Source of the DNA: Polytrichum commune
Taxonomy: Eukaryota > Streptophyta > Polytrichopsida > Polytrichales > Polytrichaceae
Assembly (NCBI GenBank): GCA_950295325.1
Contig: OX485806.1
Span: 45,751,169-45,815,168, forward strand
Reading direction: 5' to 3'
DNA: 64,000 nt
Shown: positions 8,761 through 60,960 of the stretch, in pieces
How positions within the stretch are numbered: the stretch's first letter is position 1
Layout: each line of letters starts with the position of its first letter
Notes under the pieces: model-generated
Database searches by the model: none
The model's input: only the letters and a program-made list of their open reading frames with translations
Told to the model about the DNA's origin: nothing
Program-made: the position numbers and the translations under genes

Positions 8761-8945
8761 CTCATATGAGAACACCTTCCTGACATGAAAAACTAATCTT
8801 GGACATAAGCATAACCCTCAATGCCGCAGCCATATGCTCTCAACAATAAGGATTGGTAAAAAACTTTTGTAATGAAAAAAATCAAAATTTTATCAACATC
8901 ATCGGCACGACTGATACCATTTTTTAGATTGTTTTACTAATTAAA

Positions 8946-9903
8946 GGTGAATTTGAGATGAAAGATCTTGGTGTGACCACATTCTGTCTTGGCCTACAGG
9001 TTGGACACCTTGCATGGAATATTTTTCTACATCAGAGTTTGTATACTCGAAAGATACTCAAACGTATCTCAATGGATGCGGCTCACCCACTAAGTTCCCC
9101 AATGGTGGCACAGTCATTGGATTTGAAAAATGATGAGTTTAGACCATGTGATGAGGGGGAGAAATGTTTGGGACCCGAAACTCCATATTTGGCAGCAATA
9201 GGTGCATTGATGTATTTGGCAAATTGTACCAGACCTAACATTTCATTTTCCATTAATTTATTGGCTAGATTTAATGCCAATCCAACAAAACGACATTGGA
9301 ATGGTGTCAAATATATCCTAAGATACCTCAAGGGCACTGAGGATTTAGGATTGTTTTATAAAGTTGGAGAGGATAGCAACATCAAATGATACATGGATGC
9401 GGGTTACCTTTCCAATCCGCTTGAAGAATCACAAACATATTATGTTTTCCTTAGACAAGGAATAGCAATATCTTGGAAATTAACAAAGCAGAGTTTTGTA
9501 GCATCATCCTCAAACCATTTAGAAATCATAGCCCTACATGAGGTTTCCCGCGAATGCGTTTGGTTGAGACTAGTGGATGGCTTCATCAGAGGTTCTTATG
9601 GTCTTTCCAATGTTCTAGAATCTCCAACAATGATCTATAAAGATAATGCAACGTACTTTGCTCAAATAAAGGCGGGCTACATCAAAGGAGATTGAATCAA
9701 ACACATCATACCAAAGTATTTTTCACCCATGAATTATTAGGATCAAATCTAGATGTGATGCAAGTAAGGTCTTTTGCTAACCTAGCATACTTATTCACTA
9801 AGTCATTACCAACAACTAATTTACCAACAATTAACATAGGCATAAGCAAATTGTTCAGGAAATATGGATTTAGATGTTTTCATTCCTATTTGACATTTAA
9901 ATA
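8946..9903 (+). pseudogene. Ty1/copia RT C-terminus plus RNase H
   Basis: Three consecutive frames give the 3' part of a copia pol. The first (8,958-9,389) opens at the RT segment EMKDLGVTTFCLGLQV, continues through LYTRKILKRISMD and YLAAIGALMYLANCTRPNIS, and ends in the WNGVKYILRYLKGT block. A stop (TGA at 9,387-9,389) then precedes YMDAGYLSNP, the RNase H start. RNase H continues with ISWKLTKQSFVASSS, HEVSRECVWLRL and IYKDNATYFAQ. After another stop (TGA at 9,693-9,695) come IPKYFFTHELL and the terminal LAYLFTKSLP block. Everything upstream of the late RT region, including the YVDD catalytic motif, is missing, so the element is 5' truncated at about 8,945. Confidence 0.9.
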
Positions 9904-14440: not shown

Positions 14441-15031
14441 TCAGAAGTTATTATATGCAAATTCAACCACTGCAAGGAATTCGTCCCAATCATCTTGCAC
14501 TGGGTTGACCCGTTCCGTCTGTCCGTCGGTTTGAGGATGGAATGTGGTGGACATTACCAACTTTGTCCCCAAAAGACCATGCAACGCATCCCAAAACCTA
14601 CTTGTGAATCTAGTGTCCCTATCGCTTAGAATTACCTTGAGTAGACCATGAATCTTATAAACATGATCACGAAATAACCTTGCCGTTCCTTCAGCAGTAA
14701 CATGTGTGGTGGTTGGCATAAAGTGGGCCATCTTGGACAACTTATCCACACACACAAAGATGGCATCATAACCATTAGCAGATGGATTCAAACCATAAAT
14801 AAAATCTATGCTTACCATTTCCCAATTACGATCAGGATTCTCCAATGGTTGTAACAAGCTTGTTGGCTTAAGAGTAGGGGCCTTATTCCTTTGGCAAATC
14901 TCACAAGATTTTATATAGCTTCTAATGGACCCTTGCATCTCAGGCCGCCAAAAGTTTATTTGCACCCTCTTATATATCTTAGTTATTCCTACATGACCGC
15001 TATATATCGCGTCATGGTATTCACGAAGCAA
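14441..15031 (-). pseudogene. Gypsy E integrase
   Basis: The frame of 196 residues has an N-terminal HHCC zinc module (YHDAIYSGHVG, then CEICQRNKA) and the catalytic core. The three catalytic acidic residues are all readable: Asp in VSIDFIYGL, Asp in LSDRDTRFTSRFW, and Glu in HPQTDGQTERVN. Straight after ERVN the sequence jumps to PVQDDWDEFL, so roughly ten family-conserved residues are missing there. The frame closes after VVEFAYNNF. The active site looks whole, but the surrounding element is broken. Confidence 0.9.
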
Positions 15032-15122
15032 AAATGATTGATATTCGATCCTAGGAAGGACAAATCTGGAACCACAACCGCCTTACCATACCACCAGATG
15101 TGGTTCTCATAAACAAAATGTT

Positions 15123-17501: not shown

Positions 17502-19721
17502 TTAGAGACCTTGACAAAGACGCACCAATTCCATGAAGCCACCCCATTGTTGATATCGGAAGTGCCAGAAGGCAAGCCAAAGTTGAGGGTGTTTGAGTCC
17601 ATCCTCGGAGGTGCAGTTAGACGAAGCCCACCAGGCCTTGATGGCAAGGTACCTTGTCTCAGCCTCCTGCATAGAGGATGCATCGCGATACTGGAGGCAC
17701 AGACGTTTGTGTTGGTCTTGCAAGTCGTGCTTGATATAGTGTTTGGTGTGTTTCTCCAAAGATTGTGTCCAATGGAAGTAGCAAGTTCTCTCACGCCCAT
17801 CGATGGGAACCTTTGAATCTCCGGACCCGTAGACAATTTTGACGGCATTCCAATTGGCTTGCGCACTGTCTGCCATGAAGCCTTTGAAGTGAGGCTTGGG
17901 GATTCCATGGCGAGCCATGACGTGGTTGAGGTTTTGCCAGAAAAGGACTTGAGCATCCTTGTCCTCGGATTGGAAGTCGCAGCAAGCGATGGTCATGACG
18001 CGCTGGTAGGGTTTGTCGTATACGTGGCAGGCCATGGTGGTCCACTTGGCGACGCGTTTGACATGGTCGGACATGATCCAAGCATGCTCGAGATCCCCGC
18101 CAGGTTGCATGCGCTTAACCAAGTCGACCCCACTACCAAGGCCGACCTCGGACATCTTGAAGACGAAAACTTTGTCCGTCTCGTCACCTTGGCCTGGGAA
18201 TGGATTCCGCTAGACATAGGCCCAGGTGCTGACACCTCTGAGTTTGGCGATGCCATCCATAACTCCTAGCCTACGCAAGTATTTGAAGGTGGTAACCTTG
18301 TTTTGGAGGTGGGGGGAATTCAACTCCTTGCAACGATAAAAAACGGGCTCAAGTTCTTCCAAGGAAAGAAGTTGATGAGGATCACTATCATTGCGGAGGA
18401 GGAACTCACCCACAAGGTCTTTGCTGGCCTCAAGAATGATTTTGCTATGAGTGGCTTGGGGCGTTCGCTCGACGTGCTCCTCAATTGGGGCGTCGATGCG
18501 CTGGCGGTTATCTCTGCAATTGCCGACCTTGACGAGGTGACGATGATTGCCAAGATGAATGCACGCTCGCTGAGTGGTATCGTTGCCGTGGACATAGAAG
18601 ATTTTAGCAATGCATGGTGCAATGCATTTGGGTGGCTCCTTACAGATCTTGCACACTATAGTGGAGGAGGCAAGCACCGGACCACTGACTGGAAAAGGGT
18701 CCTTGGTAAATCCATCAAATTCAATATCATTGACTGAGGAGGTACGATGAACACGTTGGAGGTAGTTGCAATGAGGATTGTGGCACTCAAGGTGGCCAAC
18801 GCAGGTGGAGGAGCAAAAAGCAAGGCCTAAGTCATTGCTAATGTTGGTGGTTTGGGTTTTGGTCCAGACATGGTCGTCGTAGCGTTTGTCCATGCCGTCC
18901 ATGGATTTGGCCTTGGTATGAGAGGATGAAACACCAACAGGGAGTAGGACAAACATCTGATTACCATCAAAGCGAAGAGGGAGGAAATTGACCTCTTCAA
19001 TTTGCAAGGTGTCATAATCTAGCTTCTTGAGGATGTTTTTCCTACCGGGCATGGAAGCAAGAGAACGTAGGCATTGATGAATGGAAATGGATGGTTTGGC
19101 AGGGGATGGAGGAAGAGGACATAAAGGTTGAAGGCTTACAGGGGGGGTCAGAAAGGAGGAATTGAGGGAGGAAGGGGATGGCTTGAGAATGGGAGTGGAT
19201 AGAGGGGACTCATCACCATCGGAGGAATCTGAAAGATGTATGACAGTGTGTATACCAGGTTCAATTTTAACTTTGACTACGGGAGGAGTGTTTAAAGTGG
19301 AAGAGGATGAATGGAGGGGGGTACGGATTTCCGTGGATACAGTTGTGCAAGAATTTGGGAGTCTGTACACTTTGTATTTTCCAGCGCAAAGTTCCCACAC
19401 TGATGATCTGTTGTCGGCAACCCTAGGATGCTCACGCATGGTCAATGACAAAAGAGAAGTAGCATTATCATAAATCTCGGGTTCGACCCATATTGTATTA
19501 TTTCGCAACGAAAACCTGATACTAAGGTGAAGGGAAGAGACAGATGCAAATCCATTCGCATTTATGGAGAAAAAAAAGGGGATCCCGACGTCATGGGCAC
19601 GCAATTCAACCATTTCTGATACACATGGCATTGTGGTTGAGGAAGCCATGGACAAAAAGAGGGACAAACAAGAAAAAATTCCAAAAAAAGAAAACGAGGC
19701 ACGGCTACCAGACAATTTCAA
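17502..19721 (-). pseudogene. MULE-like transposase with GCM-type zinc cluster, one in-frame stop
   Basis: A reading frame of about 740 codons is broken only by one TAG at 18,210-18,212. The N-terminal 300 residues are serine/proline-rich. A zinc-cluster region follows (about residues 300-400): TCVGHLECHNPHC, then VCKICKEPPKCIAPC and CIHLGNHRH. The Cys/His spacing resembles the GCM branch of the WRKY-GCM1 fold, which is known to occur in MULE-type transposases. After the stop the transposase core reads WIMSDHVKRV, HVYDKPYQRVMTIACCD, FKGFMADSAQANW and RTCYFHWTQSLEKH, a MULE-like DDE arrangement. The main frame ends at 17,502, and a shifted minus frame carries similar-looking sequence to 17,399. 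I place the start at the first ATG (19,721), but an internal Met about 24 codons in is as plausible. No terminal inverted repeats were found. Confidence 0.7.
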
Positions 19722-19756
19722 GCCCTAAATTTTCAACAATGGTACTATATAGGTAA

Positions 19757-47589: not shown

Positions 47590-48410
47590 ACAAAGTGGGC
47601 TAATGGCAATGTTGCCAATACGCGAGAAATGTAAACACGATATGTTTAGATATGTCTAAGGTATTGGCGGTGCCACCAATACCCATGAGCAAAAAAATGA
47701 AAATGAATCTAAATAGGTTTTAGGGTATTGGCAGTATCCTCAATATCTAATACGGGAGAAATGGAAATGAGGTTATGTAGGTATGAGGACATTGGTAGTG
47801 CCGCCAAGACCCATGAGCGGAAAAATGAACATAGGGTTAGGTACGTTTGAGGATACTGGTAGTGCCCTCAATCTCTAGGAGGAAAAAAATGGAAATGAGG
47901 TTAGGTAGGTATGAGGGAATTGGTAGTGCCACCAATACCCATGAATAGAATAATAAAAATGGGATTAGGTATGTCTAGGAATATTGGCAATGCCACCAAT
48001 ATCTATGAGCAAAAAAATTGAAATGGATTTGGACAAGCTTGGGGGTATTGGTAGTGCCACCAATATTCAAGGATAAATGAAAATGAAGTTATATAGGTTT
48101 AGGAATATTGGCATGCCACCAATATCCAAAAGACGGAAAATAGGAATGGGGTAATGCATGTCTGGGGATACTGGTAGTGCCCTCAATAATCCAGATGGGG
48201 AAAATAAAAATGGAGTTAGCTAGGTATGAGGATATTGTCAATGTTGCCATACATATGAGCGGAAAAATAAAAACGGAATTATTTAACTCCATGTTATTGA
48301 CGGTGTTGTCAAAACATGTGAGTGAATAATGAAAATGGACTTAGGTAAGTATGGCGATATTAGTGGTGATGTCAAAATTTGTGAGTGAAAAATGAAAATG
48401 GTTTATAGAA
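47590..48410 (+). repeat. Tandem array of ~64-bp units with hairpin core
   Basis: Thirteen or so units begin at about 47,596, 47,661, 47,723, 47,789, 47,854, 47,916, 47,980, 48,044, 48,103, 48,167, 48,230, 48,291 and 48,356. Each carries TATTGG-YRGTGCC-RCCAATA, an imperfect inverted repeat, followed by CCATGAGCGAAAAAATGAAAATGG and a GGTTAGGTAGGTATGAGG segment. Units diverge toward the right end. A stray copy of the core lies near 48,650. Confidence 0.9.
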
Positions 48411-50847: not shown

Positions 50848-50879
50848 CCAATTCCATTGCAAAGTCACATATAAACAAC

Positions 50880-51166
50880 ACACCTCGACAACAGTAGGAA
50901 GAAAGTCAAACATTTGCAAGAGCTCTAATATTTCTTCAAATGCACACAATGAGTCAAGCTATCTTTCACTTTACCACGGGAGAATCCAAGAATATAAGAA
51001 ATAGGAGAAAAACTCAAAATTTATTGCAAAACATGCAATCTTCACCTCACACAAGCTCTCTCCACACATTCACTCACAATACTTGACTTGGCAAGAATGC
51101 CAAACCAAGGAAGAGGCTCTTCATTTAAGAGCCTTGCTCTCCACATATAAGATTCATCCATCCAAA
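50880..51166 (-). mobile_element. Probable 3' LTR piece of element M
   Basis: This is a direct repeat of 59,050-59,341. Shared words include GCAAGAGCTCTAAT, ACAATGAGTCAAGCTATCT, TTATTGCAAAACATGCAATC and AAGATTCATCCATCCAAA. Its right edge meets integrase sequence directly, with no 3' untranslated region in between, so a deletion has joined integrase to the LTR. Its left edge is cut at the junction with LTR-A copy 3. Confidence 0.6.
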
Positions 51167-51763
51167 GGCAATCCAAGGCAACATAAGGTCCCAATTCCGG
51201 TGGCTCCCTTGAAGTAATTCAAACTTCCTCAAACCACATTTGGTTGTCTGAACAACCCGTTTAGCCAAGCCATCCGCCTCTGGATGATCCCGAGAGGTGG
51301 TGCGGTGATCTATGAGCGTCTTAGTGCACAACTCCTCAAAAGCGCCGAGGAATTTCCTCCTTTGGTCCGTCAATACCTCAACCGGTGCTCCAAAATGTGC
51401 CAACACACGATCCAAAAAGGCGGCCGCGGCCAACTCTGCAAAGTTTTGGGGTAAAACAATAAATTCAATCCACTTGCTAAAATGCTCTACCATCACCAAC
51501 ACGTACTTTGCTCCACGTGGCGTGACAACCAAAGGTCCCGCAAAGTCCAGCGACCAACGGTAGCCCAATCCCATGATAGGTAAGGGTTGTAACTGAGGTG
51601 ACAAGGTGTTAAAACTAGACATGACTCGGTTACAAACTTCACACCTTTTGACACAAGCAACCATCTGCTGATACATGCCAGTCCACCAATATTGACCACA
51701 CAACATTGAATGTGTCTTGCATATGCCAAAATGGCCAAGGTCCTCGTGTACTTGTTGGACCAA
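51125..51763 (-). pseudogene. Element M integrase, C-terminally truncated
   Basis: The frame has an HHCC module (VHEDLGHFGICKTHSML, then CVKRCEVCNRV) and the catalytic core. The core keeps Asp in WSLDFAGPLVV, Asp in EVLTDQRRKF, and the acidic residue in the last block (HPEADGLAKRVVQTTK, where the expected Glu position reads Lys). The third catalytic position is therefore doubtful. After LPWIAFG the frame passes into LTR sequence, so the C-terminal GPF/Y part is missing. No chromodomain is present, unlike in gypsy E and gypsy B. Confidence 0.85.
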
Positions 51764-51991
51764 GGAGGCCCTCTGATTTGGTCTAGGGACAATACGCCTT
51801 GTCCCATCCTACCACAATCAATATAACAAACCGTTCTTTCAACATGACTTTGTTATTTGATGTCCAATCCTATCCCTTTCCATTGCCGAGGTAGACGAAG
51901 GAAATGTTCACTGCTGGAGCTTATGCAATACGAGAAGATCCTCCCATATATCCGCAATAGCTTGAGGTCGATCAGTCTCATCATCCGAACC

Positions 51992-52500
51992 CTATATCAG
52001 AACCTCAACAGCCATACCAGAAAATAAAGTGAGGTAAGCAACCGCGTGCCAATCTGGAATCGTTACTCGATCACAATTTCCATGCCACCTGGTCCCAATT
52101 AAGTTCTCATCCAAAGGACTTGGATTGCATGAGAGTCCATCTACATCCAGGTTGGTAATCTCAGCATAATGCACCACCTCAAAGTCATACTCTTGGAGCA
52201 ACAAAGCCCATCTGGTGAGCTTGTCAGTAAGCTTATCTGACTCCATGAGCCACCGTAACATTTGATGATCAGTCACCAAAGTAAAGCGCTGACCATAAAG
52301 ATATGGCCAGAAATGGGCAATAGTCCACACCGCCGCCAATGCTTATCCCTCATAGGACAAATAATTGGCCTCCGCCGTGTTGTTGCTTTGCGACGCGTAA
52401 GCGACAACATACTCCCGGCCAAAGTCATCCTTCTAAGTTTTAATTGCTCCCAAATCCAATGAACTCCACTTCGTATGCAACTGGAAAGATTTGGTGACAT
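51992..52500 (-). pseudogene. Element M RNase H
   Basis: Readable blocks are AAVWTIAHFWPYLYGQ, LVTDHQMLRWLMESDKLT, RWALLLQEYDFEVVHYAE and NLDVDGLSCNPSP. The last corresponds to the post-RNase H 'DALSR' block. A frameshift or stop separates it from the preceding connection region, where the first catalytic Asp position reads Lys (HTKWSSLDLGA). Confidence 0.85.
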
Positions 52501-53339
52501 CTAGACGTCGTAGCACCAGAGCCGTATCCAATTTTTGCTTCAATGTCTCAAATGCCTGTTGCTGCTCACGACCCCAAGTCCACGGTTGGTCCTTGCTCGT
52601 GAGAATGGTAAGAGGCTTGGTGATCAAGCTAAATTTCTTGACGAATCGACGATAGTTTTTCGCCAAGTCCAAAAAAACACAAAATCTCGGCACATCGACC
52701 AGTGCCGGAATCTTTTGCAAGGCGTCCACCTTAGCTTGCTGCACTCCAAGACCTCATGGAATAATCATATGACCTAGATATGCTAGTCGGTTATGGAAAA
52801 ACTTGCACTTGCCGGTGGGAGCTGGTGATAACCGGATCTCAAGTCCAGGTGCTAAAGACCCGAGAAAATCCGATGGCATCGAACAACTCCTCCGGGGTTG
52901 GCATGGGATACCGATCCGACTTGGTCTTCCGATGAACTGGACGGTAATCCCCGTACATCCGCTTCTCCGTCCAATTGCCAAAGATATCATTCTTCGATAG
53001 CATAACCGTAGCACAAACATAATCCCCGTTGGAAAATTTGATTAGCCTTGCTGCAAAGAGCTCTCGGCAACGAGCCTGAACGCCAATCCTCTCGGAAACA
53101 CTGAGCATATAAGCTCTCCGCAAGATGGGATGGTCGTCCTCCAACTGAATGTGGATGGGTTTTCCTTTATAACCTTCGAGATCCTGAAGGCTTAAAGCAA
53201 AACACCTACAGTACGAGCGAATAAATGCTCGTACTTTCCTTGCCTCAGCACCAATGAGATGAGGGCCCAATTCCAATGGCCAATCATCAAACTTTGTGGT
53301 CTCCCTCTCCACTAGAGGAGAGCCACCTGATGTTAGCAC
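52433..53339 (-). pseudogene. Element M reverse transcriptase with palm deleted
   Basis: The N-terminal part (53,339-52,839) reads FALSLQDLEGYKGKPIHIQL, FAARLIKFSNGDYVCA and KRMYGDYRPVHRKTKSD, ending in FDAIGFSRVFS. In a shifted frame it runs to DLRSGYHQLP and then, at about 52,828, jumps to GKCKFFHNRLAYLGHMIIP. That jump removes the segment holding the catalytic Tyr-x-Asp-Asp motif, which I estimate at over 90 residues. The thumb (52,744-52,433) reads DALQKIPALVDVPRF, YRRFVKKFSLITKPL and WTWGREQQQAFETLK. Polymerase activity is impossible in this copy. Confidence 0.85.
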
Positions 53340-53354
53340 GGACTCTAACTGCTA

Positions 53355-53627
53355 CTAAGTGGAGGGGGCATTAACCATGCCTCCAACCTCCGTGCTAGCA
53401 ATAGAGTCCATCCCCTCTTCATTACCATCAATATGTGATGATGAAGCCACCACCGGAGGTGTAGAAGCCAAAGCAGTATAAACCCGTTGAGCTCGGAGTT
53501 CCTCCATCACCTGCTGTTTGAATCGAAAGATTCGTTCGGCTTCTTTAACCATGACCTCAATTCCTTCCTCCATGGATGTGGACCGTTGTGCCCCCTGACC
53601 AGAATCCTCCACCCCCAGAGACAACAA
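53355..53627 (-). pseudogene. Element M spacer between methyltransferase and RT
   Basis: This 90-residue frame directly follows the methyltransferase stop. It contains EGIEVMVKEAERIFRFKQQV, a probable amphipathic helix or coiled coil, followed by a Thr/Ser/Pro-rich tail. I know no family for it. It may be a processing linker in the original polyprotein. Confidence 0.5.
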
Positions 53628-53642
53628 CAGATCACCATGATG

Positions 53643-54710
53643 TCATTGCAATGCAAGGTATAAACCAACAGTCCACACCATGGTATGAACATCCATGGCT
53701 TGGCCCAACACGAAGCGTCGTTGGTCCTCAAAAAGGCCAGAAGTTGTGGTGGTACCAGTTCGGAATCCCATGGCACGCTCCCGTTCGTCAACCAGTGGTT
53801 CGGTGTGGATTTTGGTATGAGCATCCCACACCATACCCGGCCCCCGATCGCAGAATGCGAATGACTGTGAAAACATCATAAAGGTGGAAAAGACCCTCCA
53901 TGGTGCCCCCACTTTGTTGATCAATGCTAATGGTGATAAATCATCTCGAACAAACGGCAAAGAGGTCCGGTTTGGATCCAAGATGTCATCCACCTTCTGA
54001 TAAAAAGAAGGAGGCACTACAGAAAATGTTGTAGCTAAAGTGGATAACGGTGCGAGGTTGGTCCAAATCCACCGAGGCCGGTGGGCATAAGAACCAAGGC
54101 TCGCGGCATCCACAAAAATGGGATCTCCAAGGTGTTGACGAACATAATGGCAGCCTTCCAACACCTTGTCCCGAGAGTCTCCCAACAAATGAACATTCTT
54201 GAAGATATATCCTGGAGGGGAATGTTGGTGGGAAAACCACCACTGGATGAGGTGGATGAGGTCCCAAAATAGACTAGACCTTGGATCCTCTAGACCTCGG
54301 CTTACTCCAGCACGTGAATGGCCCTGGCATGGCCATCCCGCAATTACCATATCCACCGGACCCAAATGTCGTAACTCGGCCTCACTAATAAGTGTGACAT
54401 CACGAGGGAGACGTGAAAAACACCCACAAATGGAAGTCGGGTATAACTGTTGTGGGTACAACACTATTACCTGGTGAAGATGGTGACGAGCCACACGGAT
54501 GGACACTTGAGAGTTGTCCATATAGACATACCGTCTGACCATGAGGCCAACCTCCAATATGGCTGCTAATCCTGTGTTGATGCCCCCAAACAGTTCCACC
54601 AAAGTAATCCCCGCGTCTGGTGGGCGCCACAAAAAAATGGGGTATGCCAATGCCAATGGGTTATTTGGTATGATCGGTATTGTAGAGGCGAAAAAGGATA
54701 ATGTCCTCAC
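53643..54710 (-). CDS. C5 cytosine DNA methyltransferase domain, DNMT3-like, in element M
   Basis: The frame of 355 codons is uninterrupted. In normal, non-permuted order it has motif I (VELFGGINTGLA, residues ~38-49), motif II (YVYMDN, ~61-66), motif IV with the Pro-Cys-Gln catalytic loop (AGWPCQGHSRAG, Cys128), motif VI (YIFKNV, ~168-173), motif VIII (HRPRWIWTNL, ~210-219), motif IX (ERERAMGF, ~309-316) and motif X (VLGQAMDVHT, ~334-343). The layout and the G-I-x-T-G-L and A-H-R-x-R-x-x-W-x-N-L blocks resemble DNMT3 enzymes more than the permuted plant DRM type. Such enzymes methylate cytosine C5 using S-adenosylmethionine. The motif VI position that is normally Glu reads Lys171 (54,198-54,200), which should abolish catalysis. 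There is no PWWP or ADD reader domain. Neighbouring frames show it was probably expressed as part of the gag-pol polyprotein; the ATG is just the first Met of the open frame. Confidence 0.88.
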   Translation of the reverse strand: MRTLSFFASTIPIIPNNPLALAYPIFLWRPPDAGITLVELFGGINTGLAAILEVGLMVRRYVYMDNSQVSIRVARHHLHQVIVLYPQQLYPTSICGCFSRLPRDVTLISEAELRHLGPVDMVIAGWPCQGHSRAGVSRGLEDPRSSLFWDLIHLIQWWFSHQHSPPGYIFKNVHLLGDSRDKVLEGCHYVRQHLGDPIFVDAASLGSYAHRPRWIWTNLAPLSTLATTFSVVPPSFYQKVDDILDPNRTSLPFVRDDLSPLALINKVGAPWRVFSTFMMFSQSFAFCDRGPGMVWDAHTKIHTEPLVDERERAMGFRTGTTTTSGLFEDQRRFVLGQAMDVHTMVWTVGLYLALQ

Positions 54711-54983
54711 ATCGCCAAAATAGCTTGGTGGAATCGTGCCAAGAAGGATGAGGATCCTGGGAATTGGGCACCAATATACTGTGAGGTGTCATGTCTCGTT
54801 GTTCCTCAGCACTCCCCATAAATGCCAACGATTCCTCCAATAATGCAGACCCATAGGGCAATGTTTCAACAACAACACCACATCCAAAAACCATGGATAA
54901 AATGCTATGGTAGCGGCCGCCGCGAATGCCACATGAATACGTTCCCTATGGCCATCCCAGTCAACCAACCTGGTCGGATCCAC
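54661..54983 (-). pseudogene. Element M protease-methyltransferase linker
   Basis: Two overlapping minus frames (54,789-54,983 and 54,661-54,894) carry pieces that line up end to end between protease and methyltransferase: DWDGHRERIHVAFAAAATIA, then LPYGSALLEESLAFMGSAEE and NSQDPHPSWHDSTKLF. They are in different frames, so at least two frameshifts separate protease from methyltransferase. No domain is recognised. Confidence 0.5.
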
Positions 54984-55853
54984 GCCTCCTCAATCCAGTT
55001 GTCCAAACCAAAACCAAGAGGATAAAGTGCTTGCTGACCAACTAAAATGTCATAGTTGGTCGCATCCGTCACCGCACACCTAAAAAAAAGGTGCAAATGG
55101 ATCTCCAGGCTTCAATCGGAAGCTAAGTTGTTATGGCTCCTGAGTGTAACCTATGGCCCGTTCCACGTGGCCAATCGATGTGACGATGGTAAATGGGCAA
55201 AAAACCAAGGCGTCAGTCATCAACCGTAATTATTGTGCAAGTTTTTTGTCGATCATAACAGGTTGTGCTCCCAAATCCATCATCACACACTGAGGAGCAA
55301 CCTGAATAAGATTGCCCCTAGCTCGACTGAACACCAAAATGCCAGAATCATTCACCATACGTACAACACCATGTCGAATGCCTCGACGTTCACGAGCAGA
55401 TCGAGCAGCTACATCTAAGAGATAAATTGTGCCCGTGAAGGCTAGTGAATCACAAGATGAGGTGGGATTTTGGTCATCTGAGGCATGTGCGTTAAAAGAC
55501 GCAATGGTTTTTGCTGTAAGCCTCACTCGCCGTCTAGCCGCTTCCTCTGGATCCTCCGTGGTAGAAGAGTCAGCGGTGGCTTGAGCCACAGTCAAAGAAG
55601 ACGGCGGTGCCTTTCCTTCCAAAATCCTACTTGCTAGGTTAACCTTAGCGGGTTGGATGCCGCATACAACCACTCCATTGTTGTAAACAAAGGTGTGTGC
55701 AACACTTTGGATGCTAAAGTTGTGCACCACGTCAGTCGTCGGATTCAAAGCCTCCAAGCTCAAATGATGACCACTAACAGATTGGACAGAATCCGCCAAT
55801 CTAAAAGACAATGACAGACGGGCCTGGCCAATATGATCCGCAGGACCATTCAT
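54905..55853 (-). pseudogene. Element M aspartic protease
   Basis: The frame 55,853-55,230 ends in CVMMDLGAQPVMIDKKLAQ, the active-site strand of a retroviral-type protease in which the D-T/S-G triad reads DLG. After a stop, the second half (55,096-54,905) reads RCAVTDATNYDILVGQQALY and PLGFGLDNWIEEAWIRPGW, with the ILVGQQ hydrophobic-Gly motif typical of these proteases. The upstream 180 residues hold a low-complexity linker (EEAARRRVRLTAKTIASFN). With Leu in the triad and a stop between the halves, this protease is dead. Confidence 0.7.
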
Positions 55854-55939: not shown

Positions 55940-56278
55940 TCACACCTCCCCCGAGGCTCCAAACATATAATAATCCAGAGTGGAAGAACTAGCCTTAGCT
56001 CTGGAGGAAGACGGTAAGTCCAAAATTTTGAACCTCTTCTCCAAGGCTTTAATCTTCACCTCCAACACCTTTTCCCGATCGAAAAAATGATGTTTCTTTG
56101 GATGGAGAACAAAGCAATTTTCCATTGTATGATTGTTCCGCCCACAATGAGAACACTTCAACTGCTTGGATAAATATTTATCTGCCCCCTTTGTCAAATT
56201 ATTAGCAAGAACAATTGGTTTCCGCTTTGTTTTACCTACGGTCTGGGTTTGACTTTGCTTCGAAGGCCAATAATACAA
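55940..56278 (-). pseudogene. Element M gag, zinc-knuckle part
   Basis: The frame has a basic region (GKTKRKPIVLANN) and a complete CCHC zinc knuckle, CSHCGRNNHTMENC (about 56,135-56,176), followed by KALEKRFKILDLPSSSRAK, a likely coiled-coil end of gag. All four metal ligands are intact. Confidence 0.85.
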
Positions 56279-56730
56279 GGTCTTGTCAGCCTCTGCTCCA
56301 CCAATTTTGCATTCGCAACCGGAGCCTTCTAGGACTTCCTAGAATCCATTAGCATGGACACCAATCAGTGGCATCGTGCTGACACAAGGCACGATCATAT
56401 TGCTCAACAATGGCAAAAATCTCTGCAAGTGTCGCCCGGCCACCATAATTCATGATGATCTTGGGCAGCGCTAAGTCAATGAGGCGTTTGTCAATTTTTG
56501 ATTAAAAAAAACTTCACCAAGTGGCTTTCTACGAAAATGCCTCCAGATTCCCTTGCAAACCTCGCCAACCTTGTGTACATGGTATGAGGTGTGTCCTCTT
56601 TCTTCTGTCAAAAATCATGGATCCGTTGCATTTGATCTCGGCGGAAACCTTCATATTCTTCTTCCAAATGGAGTTGGAATTCCTGCAGAGGTTCAAAATC
56701 AGGCGGAGCCCCTAAAGAGGCTAATGTTGC

Positions 56731-57315
56731 CTATGTAGTCTGAGCATAGCGAGATAGTGGAAATTTTGGGCTCGACGTACTCGTGAATGCGGAAGCAAGA
56801 ACCTTTTCCTTAGGTTCACTAGGAACAACTCCCTCCACGTCTACTATGAACACGCTCTCGGCTGGCTCCATCTTCATCACAAGAGGGGCTAATAAACTAA
56901 AAATCACAACCTCCTTCAATGCGGAAACCAACTCCATTCGAGTCTCCTAGCACCGCTCCACCTGGCGTAGCCCCATCCAATGAGCATCCCTCCATTTTTC
57001 ATATGTTTGAAACATTTCGTGCTTAAAATATTGAGGTAATAGCTCAAACGTATACCAATCATTAAAATGGGTATTGTGTTGACGTTTCTCCCTCATACAT
57101 GGTCTTGGTCCCTGCTCGACCGGAAAACCGGTCTCAAACTCCATCTCGTTTTTCTTCCTCCATATCGTCAAAGATTCCTGCCCAAAGGTCGTTAGAAGTA
57201 GGCTGAAGTAGGTTGAAAAACCTCGTTGGGTGTTATAACGGGTTTGACATCTAAGAGGACCGATGATTGAACTTCTGATGCTTCTAGAGATGGTGAACGA
57301 TAATGTTGTCACCAT
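56731..57315 (-). pseudogene. Element M gag, N-terminal and capsid-like part
   Basis: Two minus frames in succession: 57,315-56,947 with NDWYTFELLPQYFKHEMFQT and WRDAHWMGLRQVERC, and 56,937-56,731 with a Val/Pro/Glu-rich linker. A stop separates them, then the region 56,280-56,730 is broken into short pieces (a readable stretch near 56,400-56,500 contains an HDDCGGRATLAEIFAI-like segment). Assignment to gag rests on position before the zinc knuckle and on composition. Confidence 0.55.
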
Positions 57316-59049: not shown

Positions 59050-59341
59050 AAGCATTGTTGCGAAGTGAGTAGGAAGGGAGTCAAACCCTTGCAAGAGCTC
59101 TAATGTCTTTTCAAATGCATACAATGAGTCAAGCTATCTCTCACTCCATCACAGGAGAATCCAAGAGTGTAACAAAGGGGAGAAGAACTCAAGACTTATT
59201 GCAAAACATGCAATCTTCACCTCACACAAACTCCCTTCACACACTCACTCACAATACTTGACTTGACAAGAATGCCAAGCCAATGAGAAAGCTCCTCACT
59301 TAGGAGCCTTCCTCTCCACATCTAAGATTCATCCATCCAAA
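59050..59341 (-). mobile_element. Probable 5' LTR piece of element M
   Basis: Direct repeat partner of 50,880-51,166, on the outer side of gag. It ends at AAGATTCATCCATCCAAA; read on the minus strand the LTR would start TGGATGGATGAATC, with the expected TG. Similarity to the other copy fades left of 59,050, so the inner LTR border is undefined. Confidence 0.6.
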
Positions 59342-60960
59342 TCTAAATGAATGAAGCCCAACGGATAAGGTGTGCCCGCCGACGCCGCATACCGTGACAA
59401 CTTTCCCCACTGAGCACACCAGTGAGACAATCATCAAAGCTAAACTTATAATATGTCCCCTCTTCTTTGTGTTTTGAACAAAATTTAATTATAATTACTC
59501 TTGAAATTTTTATGTAATCAATAATCATCTTGTAGTCAATTCGATTTCCATATACAAAAATTTAAAACATTGAATAGCCAATTCCCATTTGCCTTGTGAT
59601 TCTGAGGACCCATGCATATCAAATGTGTGTTTCCATCTCAATTTATTAATCCTACCAAATAAAAACATTTGTAACCTTGGAAAATTATGCTCATTAGATT
59701 CAAGATTTCTATATTCCATCCTTGATATGTGTTACCCTGATAAGTTTTAAAATCACATATGTGTTGAGAAAATTGTGCTTCCCCAAAAAATAAAATATAA
59801 ACATTAATAATTGTTAATTTTTAATTGTTGAAAGAATTTATAAATATTCTGCTCCATTCTCCAATACTTTAACCTTGATAAATGTTAATTTGGATGAAAG
59901 TCATGCTCTGAACTTCATATCTTGGATAATATTGATGAAAACCCTAACCAAAAACCTTGCTACCTTATTGGAACAATTGGAATTGGTATTTGCAGAGAGT
60001 GGAGTTGGACCCACTATGAATGCTCATGAGTTCATTAATTATGTATTGGACTTTGATCCAAACAATTTATATATAACTATTGAAGAGATAATTATAAATA
60101 TGTTTGATGAAAAAAATTGATACAACTGACAATGTGCAAATTGGCGATGTTGTGATAGATATAATAGGATTCAAGGATGTTGGAAGTACATAAGTGACCT
60201 TGAAACAAATTTTGGAGAAAAAAGAAACGGATGCCACACCCTTCATTTGTAACATTCAAACCCTTCAAAAAAATATATAGATTCATTCTTCCATTATGCT
60301 TATATGTGTGATGACATTCGTATCTTTTGTAAACTCATATTTTATTATATAAGTGATATTGTTTCTAGTTCCAAAGTCATATAAGCATCATTCATGTAGG
60401 TGTTACAAATTGTCTATGTTTACCCCTATAATTGTTACAATGTTAACAACACATAATTTTATAAGTTTCTTTGTTTCGAAGTGTTAACATATATCAAGGT
60501 TGCATAATATAATTTTGTTAATGTCTGAATTGTTGATTTTATTATTATTAATAAGTGTTGTATTTCAAGAATTTAAATATGTTTAATTTATGAGTTAATT
60601 GGCATCATCCATATTGGGTAAGGTAAAGGGTGTTAAAACCAACACTCCACCCAAAACCAAGAAGAAGAAGAAGAAGAACTCCGGTCTCCGAAGGAGGCCG
60701 GAGTGAATAGATTGTCTGTTCGTAAAACATCCTTGGCCATGCCCTAGGGCAATGGCGTTAGATGTAAAACTACTTCACCTTTTGCAGGGAGTAGACACTA
60801 TATTAATAACTAATAACCGGTTAACCGGTAACCGGTAACCGGTAGCATGTGAACGTTGTTACTGGGGTTTATCCAGTATAATGGCATTGTTTTACAGGGT
60901 ATAGTGTATCGGGTTATAAGTGTGTTTATTTAGTTATGCTAGGTCATGAAGGTATGTGAC
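59342..60960. other. Unassigned AT-rich sequence with one transposase-like frame
   Basis: Mostly AT-rich and without recognised features. The plus frame at 59,875-60,120 (LATLLEQLELVFAESG, then MNAHEFINYVLDFDPN and ITIEEIIINMF) has the acidic, helical look of the C-terminal tail of pogo/Tigger-type transposases, but that is a weak resemblance. A GAAGAAGAAGAAGAAG run lies at 60,659, and AACCGGT repeats at 60,818-60,846. Confidence 0.25.

Follow-up and report, generated by a model that had tools for sequence, protein, structure and literature searches.

A DNMT3-like cytosine methyltransferase in a Ty3/gypsy retrotransposon family of the land plant Polytrichum commune

A stretch of 64,000 nucleotides from Polytrichum commune (assembly GCA_950295325.1, contig OX485806.1, positions 45,751,169 to 45,815,168; hereafter the window) contains the remains of a Ty3/gypsy retrotransposon in which a cytosine-5 methyltransferase (MT) of the DNMT3 type lies between protease and reverse transcriptase (RT). 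Judged by its sequence, the window element is a dead and degraded member of a large family that was active recently; intact members carry the MT in the gag-protease open reading frame (ORF), ahead of a conserved stop codon. We lean, with slightly better than even confidence, towards the reading that a DNMT3-type enzyme has long been held in the Gag-protease polyprotein of this family and acts on newly made cDNA.

The methyltransferase and its copies

An open-frame scan of the window places the MT on the minus strand at 54788..53643 (381 codons); the initial annotation had the place right (53643..54710) and gave 355 codons, and the plus strand of 53643-54710 is riddled with stops. The frame matches Pfam DNA_methylase (E 1.1e-10) and, among PDB chains, DNMT3B and DNMT3A most closely (E ~5e-11, residues 61-249, non-permuted), in agreement with its earlier assignment to the C5 methyltransferases. 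The motifs, which we take to correspond to those conventionally numbered I to X, follow the ordinary, non-permuted order I, II, IV (PCQ), VI, VIII, IX, X, as had been noted, but two of them are mutated: motif VI is KNV in the window and ENV in all 20 other fetched copies, and motif I is GINTG in place of the GIGTG (18/20) or GIGTR (2/20) found elsewhere. Motif IV is retained; methylation by this particular copy, as first envisaged, is ruled out by the KNV together with the broken frames. Pieces of gag with its CCHC region, protease, RT, RNase H and integrase share the strand in the order gag-PR-MT-RT-RH-IN, confirming the location of the domain inside a Ty3/gypsy element.

Three MT searches of the 407.8-Mb assembly (64 contigs, seven of which make up ~406 Mb) listed at least 108, 123 and 121 places, one of the 123 being a host DRM gene that was excluded, and at least 251 MT places result when those less than 1.5 kb apart are merged. 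A search based on RT, and hence not selected by the MT, scored the best 150 of 1733 candidate places; an MT place is listed no more than 5 kb upstream in 128 of the 150, and the three fetched from the other 22 all have MT sequence, nearly whole but frame-broken in two and reduced to 58 residues in the third. Other copies keep the domain between protease and RT, so that the refuting condition named in the initial annotation, copies lacking it, does not hold. That a host gene was inserted here just once, or that the match arose by chance, has virtually no probability in view of the number of places, the linkage to RT and the soil-crust relative described below; nothing speaks for it except the decay of the window copy. 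ORF1 is free of stops over 1340 codons or more in 11 of the 108 and 17 of the 121 places listed (at least 28 intact). The family comprises two clades in the host genome (clade 2 exemplified by L045), whose MTs are 62% identical, synonymous sites being saturated (proportions of synonymous and nonsynonymous differences, pS and pN, of 0.72-0.76 and 0.23-0.26). Contig C4 is richest in MT places (51 of the 176 listed before the clade 2 search; 16-28 on other contigs), and one copy, L018, is a nested insertion, its host site being the spacer of a second family member (541-bp repeat, duplication CAGC).

A scan of prokaryote species genomes for the element detected a relative on the 9285-base contig CADCWO010000201.1, binned as a Synechococcales cyanobacterium (AVDCRST_MAG81), which carries a gag-protease-MT frame, a stop and RT, with an ORF2 88% identical including its PHD finger. 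Other retroelement-like matches occur in the same bin (L048, L050 and L051 cover these and the gypsy-DNMT3 element), and because they include gypsy-like ones the contig is probably misbinned plant or algal DNA, that is, eukaryotic contamination from the soil crust. Its ends overlap by 127 nt, implying a circular assembly path that could reflect real circles or repeat collapse. Between the crust element and the host family, RT differs at pS 0.65-0.67 and pN 0.06, the MT at pS 0.74-0.76 and pN 0.23 and the PHD finger at pS 0.75-0.79 and pN 0.11-0.14, values indicating old divergence under constraint without sign of recent transfer; the crust MT shares 69% identity with clade 2 and less, 64%, with clade 1. 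In Streptomyces there was a match over 94 residues at 35% (L049), and in viral contigs the element was not found, the one match being a bacterial-type MTase (L047).

By profile score and predicted fold, the MT appears nearer to DNMT3 than to DNMT1, chromomethylase (CMT), DRM, DNMT2 or bacterial enzymes. A six-sequence MT profile scored 42-50 bits against DNMT3A/B/C in the PDB, compared with 23-32 for DRM, 20-25 for HhaI and 14-17 for DNMT2, and of the 55 chains listed, to a limit of E 10, none bears the name DNMT1 or CMT. An AlphaFold model of the crust MT (6 sequences; pLDDT 59.7, pTM 0.69, residues 237-339 below 50) was used for the fold search, a model of the L010 MT (pLDDT 31.6) being left out; all 50 Foldseek matches listed are DNMT3A or DNMT3B, at modest scores (TM 0.41-0.47 by query length, rmsd 9-12). 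The catalytic domain of DNMT3A/3B (PDB 6u8w, 2qrv and others) is accordingly the top match in both sequence and fold and has the same motif order, with identity of ~20-22%. The earlier description as DNMT3-like and non-permuted is supported by these matches.

Motifs I, IV (PC), VI (ENV), VIII, IX and X are present in non-permuted order in intact copies, ENV being lost from the window alone among 21 copies and the motif IV cysteine from L028 alone; the clade 2 and crust enzymes likewise have ENV and PCQ. Median dN/dS, taken over 13 copies that are intact or nearly so, is 0.246 for the MT, against 0.144 for gag, 0.319 for protease, 0.114 for RT, 0.108 for RNase H, 0.197 for integrase, 0.489 for the PHD finger and 0.742 for the spacer between MT and RT, which is the fastest-evolving stretch. 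These substitution rates indicate that the MT is under purifying selection, and the MTs of intact copies are very probably catalytic.

Readthrough stop, ends and priming

In the intact copy L010, ORF1 (1366 codons) encodes gag, two CCHC knuckles, a protease with active site DSGA, the MT and the spacer, the zf-CCHC and protease matches being under the Pfam curated cut-offs; ORF2 (1048 codons) encodes RT, RNase H, the H2C2 and rve parts of integrase and a terminal PHD finger (PF00628, E 1.4e-10). This succession, from gag through to an integrase bearing H2C2 and rve, is that of Ty3/gypsy elements. Pfam detected no tyrosine recombinase in either ORF of L010, no ADD or PWWP domain in ORF1 and, in ORF2, no chromodomain such as would mark a chromovirus, the PHD finger standing instead. 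Best PDB relatives of this finger are CHD4, PHF12, KDM5, ATXR5 and UHRF1, a group in which many PHD fingers read unmodified H3K4.

The two ORFs of L010 adjoin in one frame at a TAG codon that is present in all 21 copies including the window (in L016, L022 and L026 it is out of the MT frame through frame breaks), and CAR YYA follows in 19 of the 21, L024 and L027 being the exceptions. Both the clade 2 example and the crust element have TAG CAA TCA, though the spacer has diverged. UAG CAR YYA is the readthrough signal of tobamoviruses such as TMV (available text of PMC2754532 and PMC3542737); in the element, where it is known from sequence, this type I site would join Gag-PR-MT to RT-IN-PHD of a retrotransposon. 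Predicted RNA folds around the TAG in L010, L045, L048 and L025 are stabler than shuffles (z -3.1 in a first analysis and -2.4, -1.9, -3.1 and -5.1 in a second), and L010 and L048 are predicted to form a hairpin 3′ of the TAG, a possible readthrough enhancer. The MT is consequently not part of the RT frame, and since it lies within the gag-protease ORF, before a readthrough-type stop, it should be produced at the level of Gag. This provides a clue to dosage: it is the Gag product, and not that of RT, to which the enzyme is tied.

The element has the plan A1 (333 nt) - ORFs - B1 (106 nt) - GC - A2 - B2, that is, split A-ORFs-B-A-B repeats in place of the identical long terminal repeats (LTRs) found at both ends of Ty3/gypsy elements. 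Split direct repeats are a feature of the DIRS/PAT type, but the recombinase and lack of target duplication of that type are not found. Of 13 elements, 10 could be tested for their ends (L009 and L015 are without an A pair and the left end of L019 is outside the locus), and all 10 have ends TGTC..GACA with a perfect 4-bp target duplication; when offsets from -3 to +4 were compared, the duplication was found in 10/10 at +1 and in 0/10 at every other. The TG..CA ends and 4-bp duplications constitute the footprint of a DDE integrase. At the B1-A2 junction is a palindrome, GACAGCTGTC, in all 10 copies, with CpGs on either side (ACGACAGCTGTCACGG). A purine tract (ending in AGGGGGGGCA) lies 5′ of B1 in the six copies, out of 11, for which that site is displayed, and in the crust element.

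Directly after A1 is an exact complement of part of A, 15 nt long in five copies, 14 in one, 13 in two and 9 in one (n = 9). In the crust element the pair is altered on both sides and is still complementary over 13 nt. Positions of the purine tract and of this primer site imply that the replicative LTR is B-A and that the integrated ends lie inside it. Mismatches between A1 and A2 number 0, 0, 0, 1, 2, 2, 2, 5, 7 and 9 per 333, few enough for some insertions to be recent. Gypsy elements of the Tf1/sushi group are self-primed, and in them, as apparently here, the primer-binding site pairs with part of the element's own repeat on the transcript side; the repeats here differ in being split.

Possible targets of the methyltransferase

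The architecture is read from the sequence directly, and from it we infer the target of the MT and the timing of its action. Most ribosomes would halt at the UAG, the MT being produced and packaged at the level of Gag, and RT-IN-PHD would come from occasional readthrough. Before insertion, either inside the particle or once the nucleus is reached, the MT would methylate fresh double-stranded cDNA, and new insertions would thereby resemble host-methylated DNA from the outset, while the PHD finger might steer the integration complex to chromatin of a given histone H3 state. To judge by the split repeats and the self-complementary primer site, cDNA of the form B-A-ORFs-B-A may be circularised and then opened by integrase at the palindrome between B and A. 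Self-methylation by intact copies is plausible; the chance that the MT acts mainly on new cDNA we rate at a little under even.

To look for traces of methylation, eight older copies were compared with six reference copies at the sites on which the latter are unanimous. C-to-T changes amount to 183/1688 at CG, 149/1427 at CHG and 377/6730 at CHH, beside 340/12875 for A/T transitions, an excess implying that host tissue carries these copies with CG and CHG methylation. Two host DRM places, which mark the genome as that of a streptophyte, were detected (DRM2, E 5.5e-52; the second at 75%), in addition to a fragment resembling a decayed DRM gene (L046, C6:4823200-4825400), and a PF00145 search and a DRM query of the genome detected no host DNMT3 gene, although intron-split exons could escape them. 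A cluster of 14 near-equal matches to a light-harvesting protein was also observed at C5:1751760-1846160. The LHCA3 of this genome scores 367 bits against 6l35, 7xqp and 7ksq, which are from Physcomitrium patens, and 334 against the group ranked next, as would suit a moss.

Several points weigh against action of a long-held MT on new cDNA. The 20 fetched copies were picked from MT matches, leaving the universality of the domain to be judged from the RT-based count alone; motif IV is PCQ here and PCN in the aligned DNMT3 chains; the MT evolves at about twice the rate of RT; and the primer match in L018 is just 9 nt, a length reached in 4 of 200 shuffles. Host methylation alone suffices to explain the decay at CG and CHG. 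Coding CG observed/expected is 0.76-0.82 in copies L009-L021, against 0.57 in the whole window, of different composition; intact copies are therefore not CpG-poor and source copies are without sign of permanent heavy methylation. In addition, an algal counterpart, KnitGypsy-Dnmt3, was inactive in the yeast assay in which Symbiodinium enzymes methylated CG, an outcome that its authors call inconclusive (available text of PMC5890265).

Among other roles, self-restraint, in which the MT methylates chromosomal copies of its own element or of relatives and damps their expression to the benefit of host and element, was among the ideas offered in the available text of PMC5890265 and would be consistent with purifying selection on the MT and with the C-to-T excess in older copies. 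That excess could equally come from host enzymes of the CMT/DRM type, the two DRM genes being at hand, the at least 28 intact ORF1s and the near-identical A pairs (0-9 mismatches per 333) speak of active spread, and coding CG content is not low; this role is unlikely.

Counter-defence or another action in trans, in which the MT modifies defence loci, competing elements or the element's own RNA but not its own cDNA, could draw on an enzyme made with Gag and hence in excess over RT, and RNA methylation has been raised for the LINE class (PMC5890265, available text). The MT nevertheless groups in sequence and fold with DNA-acting DNMT3, scoring at most 17 bits against DNMT2, and such a role is quite unlikely. 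A non-catalytic, structural or nucleic-acid-binding role in the particle would suit a fold joined to Gag-protease whose rate of evolution exceeds that of RT, and DNMT3L is a non-catalytic relative of DNMT3; conservation of PC and ENV, together with the blocks of motifs I, VIII, IX and X, between the saturated clades and in the crust element renders it distinctly improbable.

Methylation of new cDNA by a Gag-borne MT also admits a broader version, which we consider quite improbable at present: the element may represent an ancient green-lineage type with methylation as a step of its life cycle, the MT marking circular cDNA, integrase opening that circle at the palindrome within the LTR, the PHD finger picking histone-defined chromatin and insertions arriving silent. 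Animal DNMT3s unite writer and reader in one protein through the ADD domain; here, a DNMT3 writer and a PHD reader would be divided between two polyproteins of one element. Cytosine methylation is the means by which plants silence retrotransposons, and still this family retains its own de novo-type MT in clades that are synonymously saturated, and such long retention makes the question of what a transposon gains by methylating DNA a testable one. For this the family offers numerous listed copies in two clades, some of them intact and others dead, and, in the spacer, a fast-evolving internal control.

The window copy and known systems

The remnants of the window element are collected in Table 1. 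It is dead: interruptions affect gag, protease, RT and integrase, and the last has lost its C-terminus along with the PHD finger; a functional window copy is ruled out by KNV, the protease active site DLGA (DSGA in L010), the stops and the deletion. B1 is also missing, and with most of B2 lost the target duplication cannot be checked. The direct repeat at 50893-51166 and 59068-59341, considered as a pair of ordinary LTRs, is only part A of the split repeat.

Table 1. Features of the decayed element in the window (positions are those of the window)
Feature	Position	Strand	Basis or remark
A1, left terminal repeat, starts TGTCACGG	59067..59399	-	87% identity to A of L017, 335 columns
Decayed self-complementary primer-binding site, right after A1	59052..59066	-	exact 13-15 nt A complement here in 8/9 tested copies
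gag remnant, 9 stops	56308..57105	-	58% identity to L010 gag
CCHC zinc-knuckle region of gag	56075..56296	-	L010 ORF1 zf-CCHC, under curated cut-off
Protease remnant, 5 stops, active site DLGA	54903..55349	-	comparison with L010
MT frame, 381 codons, PCQ kept, KNV, GINTG	53643..54788	-	Pfam and PDB matches, copy alignment
MT-RT spacer	53358..53648	-	70% identity to L010
TAG of readthrough site (TAG CAG TTA); second TAG just before at 53355-53357	53352..53354	-	
RT remnant	52848..53081	-	first 78/240 query residues in frame
RNase H remnant, 2 stops	52181..52600	-	Pfam and L010 comparison
Integrase, H2C2 zinc site and rve core; without C-terminal part and PHD finger	51158..51817	-	
A2, right-hand A copy, without first 58 nt	50896..51166	-	
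B2, outer right repeat, first 36 nt only	50855..50890	-	remainder lost

Elsewhere in the window are a tandem-like repeat at 47663-48233 (64-base spacing, 128-base units), the integrase of another element at 14441-15082 on the minus strand (H2C2 zinc domain E 2.3e-18, rve under cut-off), a 504-codon open frame without Pfam match at 18210-19724 (minus strand) and a weak copia-type RT match at 8928-9389 on the plus strand (RVT_2, E 7e-5, under cut-off).

In the open-licence literature no methyltransferase-bearing retrotransposon of a land plant and no PHD finger on a gypsy integrase was found. Relative to that literature, and as far as seen, the land-plant host, the Gag-side MT before a UAG CAR YYA stop, the PHD finger on integrase, the self-complementary primer site with its compensatory change and the 4-bp duplications on permuted ends are new. 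The repeats of REM1 from Chlamydomonas are unusual. REM1 is likewise a green-lineage gypsy element of unusual structure, but it is a chromovirus with a displaced, truncated part of integrase, and the available text makes no mention of a methyltransferase (PMC2774666). In animal DNMT3A/3B the catalytic domain is the counterpart of the MT, and the PHD finger of the present element sits on integrase.

Retrotransposons with captured methyltransferases in dinoflagellates and a streptophyte alga, named in the initial annotation as precedents, are indeed on record (available text of PMC5890265, to which the following statements also refer). SymbioDIRS-Dnmt3 and SymbioLINE-Dnmt similarly place a cytosine DNMT within a retrotransposon, and the former has A-coding-B-A-B repeats and a DNMT3-type domain; Symbiodinium retrotransposon DNMT3s, that of SymbioDIRS-Dnmt3 included, methylate CG de novo in yeast. 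These elements use a tyrosine recombinase or are LINEs, in contrast to the DDE integrase and 4-bp duplications seen here.

The closest counterpart is KnitGypsy-Dnmt3 of Klebsormidium nitens, a gypsy element with an intronless DNMT3-like domain (de Mendoza et al., 2018; PMC5890265), so that the principle of a DNMT3 in a gypsy element with DIRS-like repeats has been known since that report. Both elements have the same Ty3/gypsy domain set, an intronless, non-permuted DNMT3-like domain that is part of a polyprotein and under purifying selection, and DIRS-like terminal repeats. They differ, by comparison of descriptions only, in that the algal domain is in the Pol polyprotein ORF and that of P. 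commune in the gag-protease ORF before a readthrough-type stop; PHD finger, readthrough and chromodomain go unmentioned in the main text of that report, the first two having their counterparts here; and the host is an alga there and here a land plant with at least 251 MT places. If the domain is shared with Klebsormidium by descent, its acquisition would move from the K. nitens lineage back to early streptophytes.
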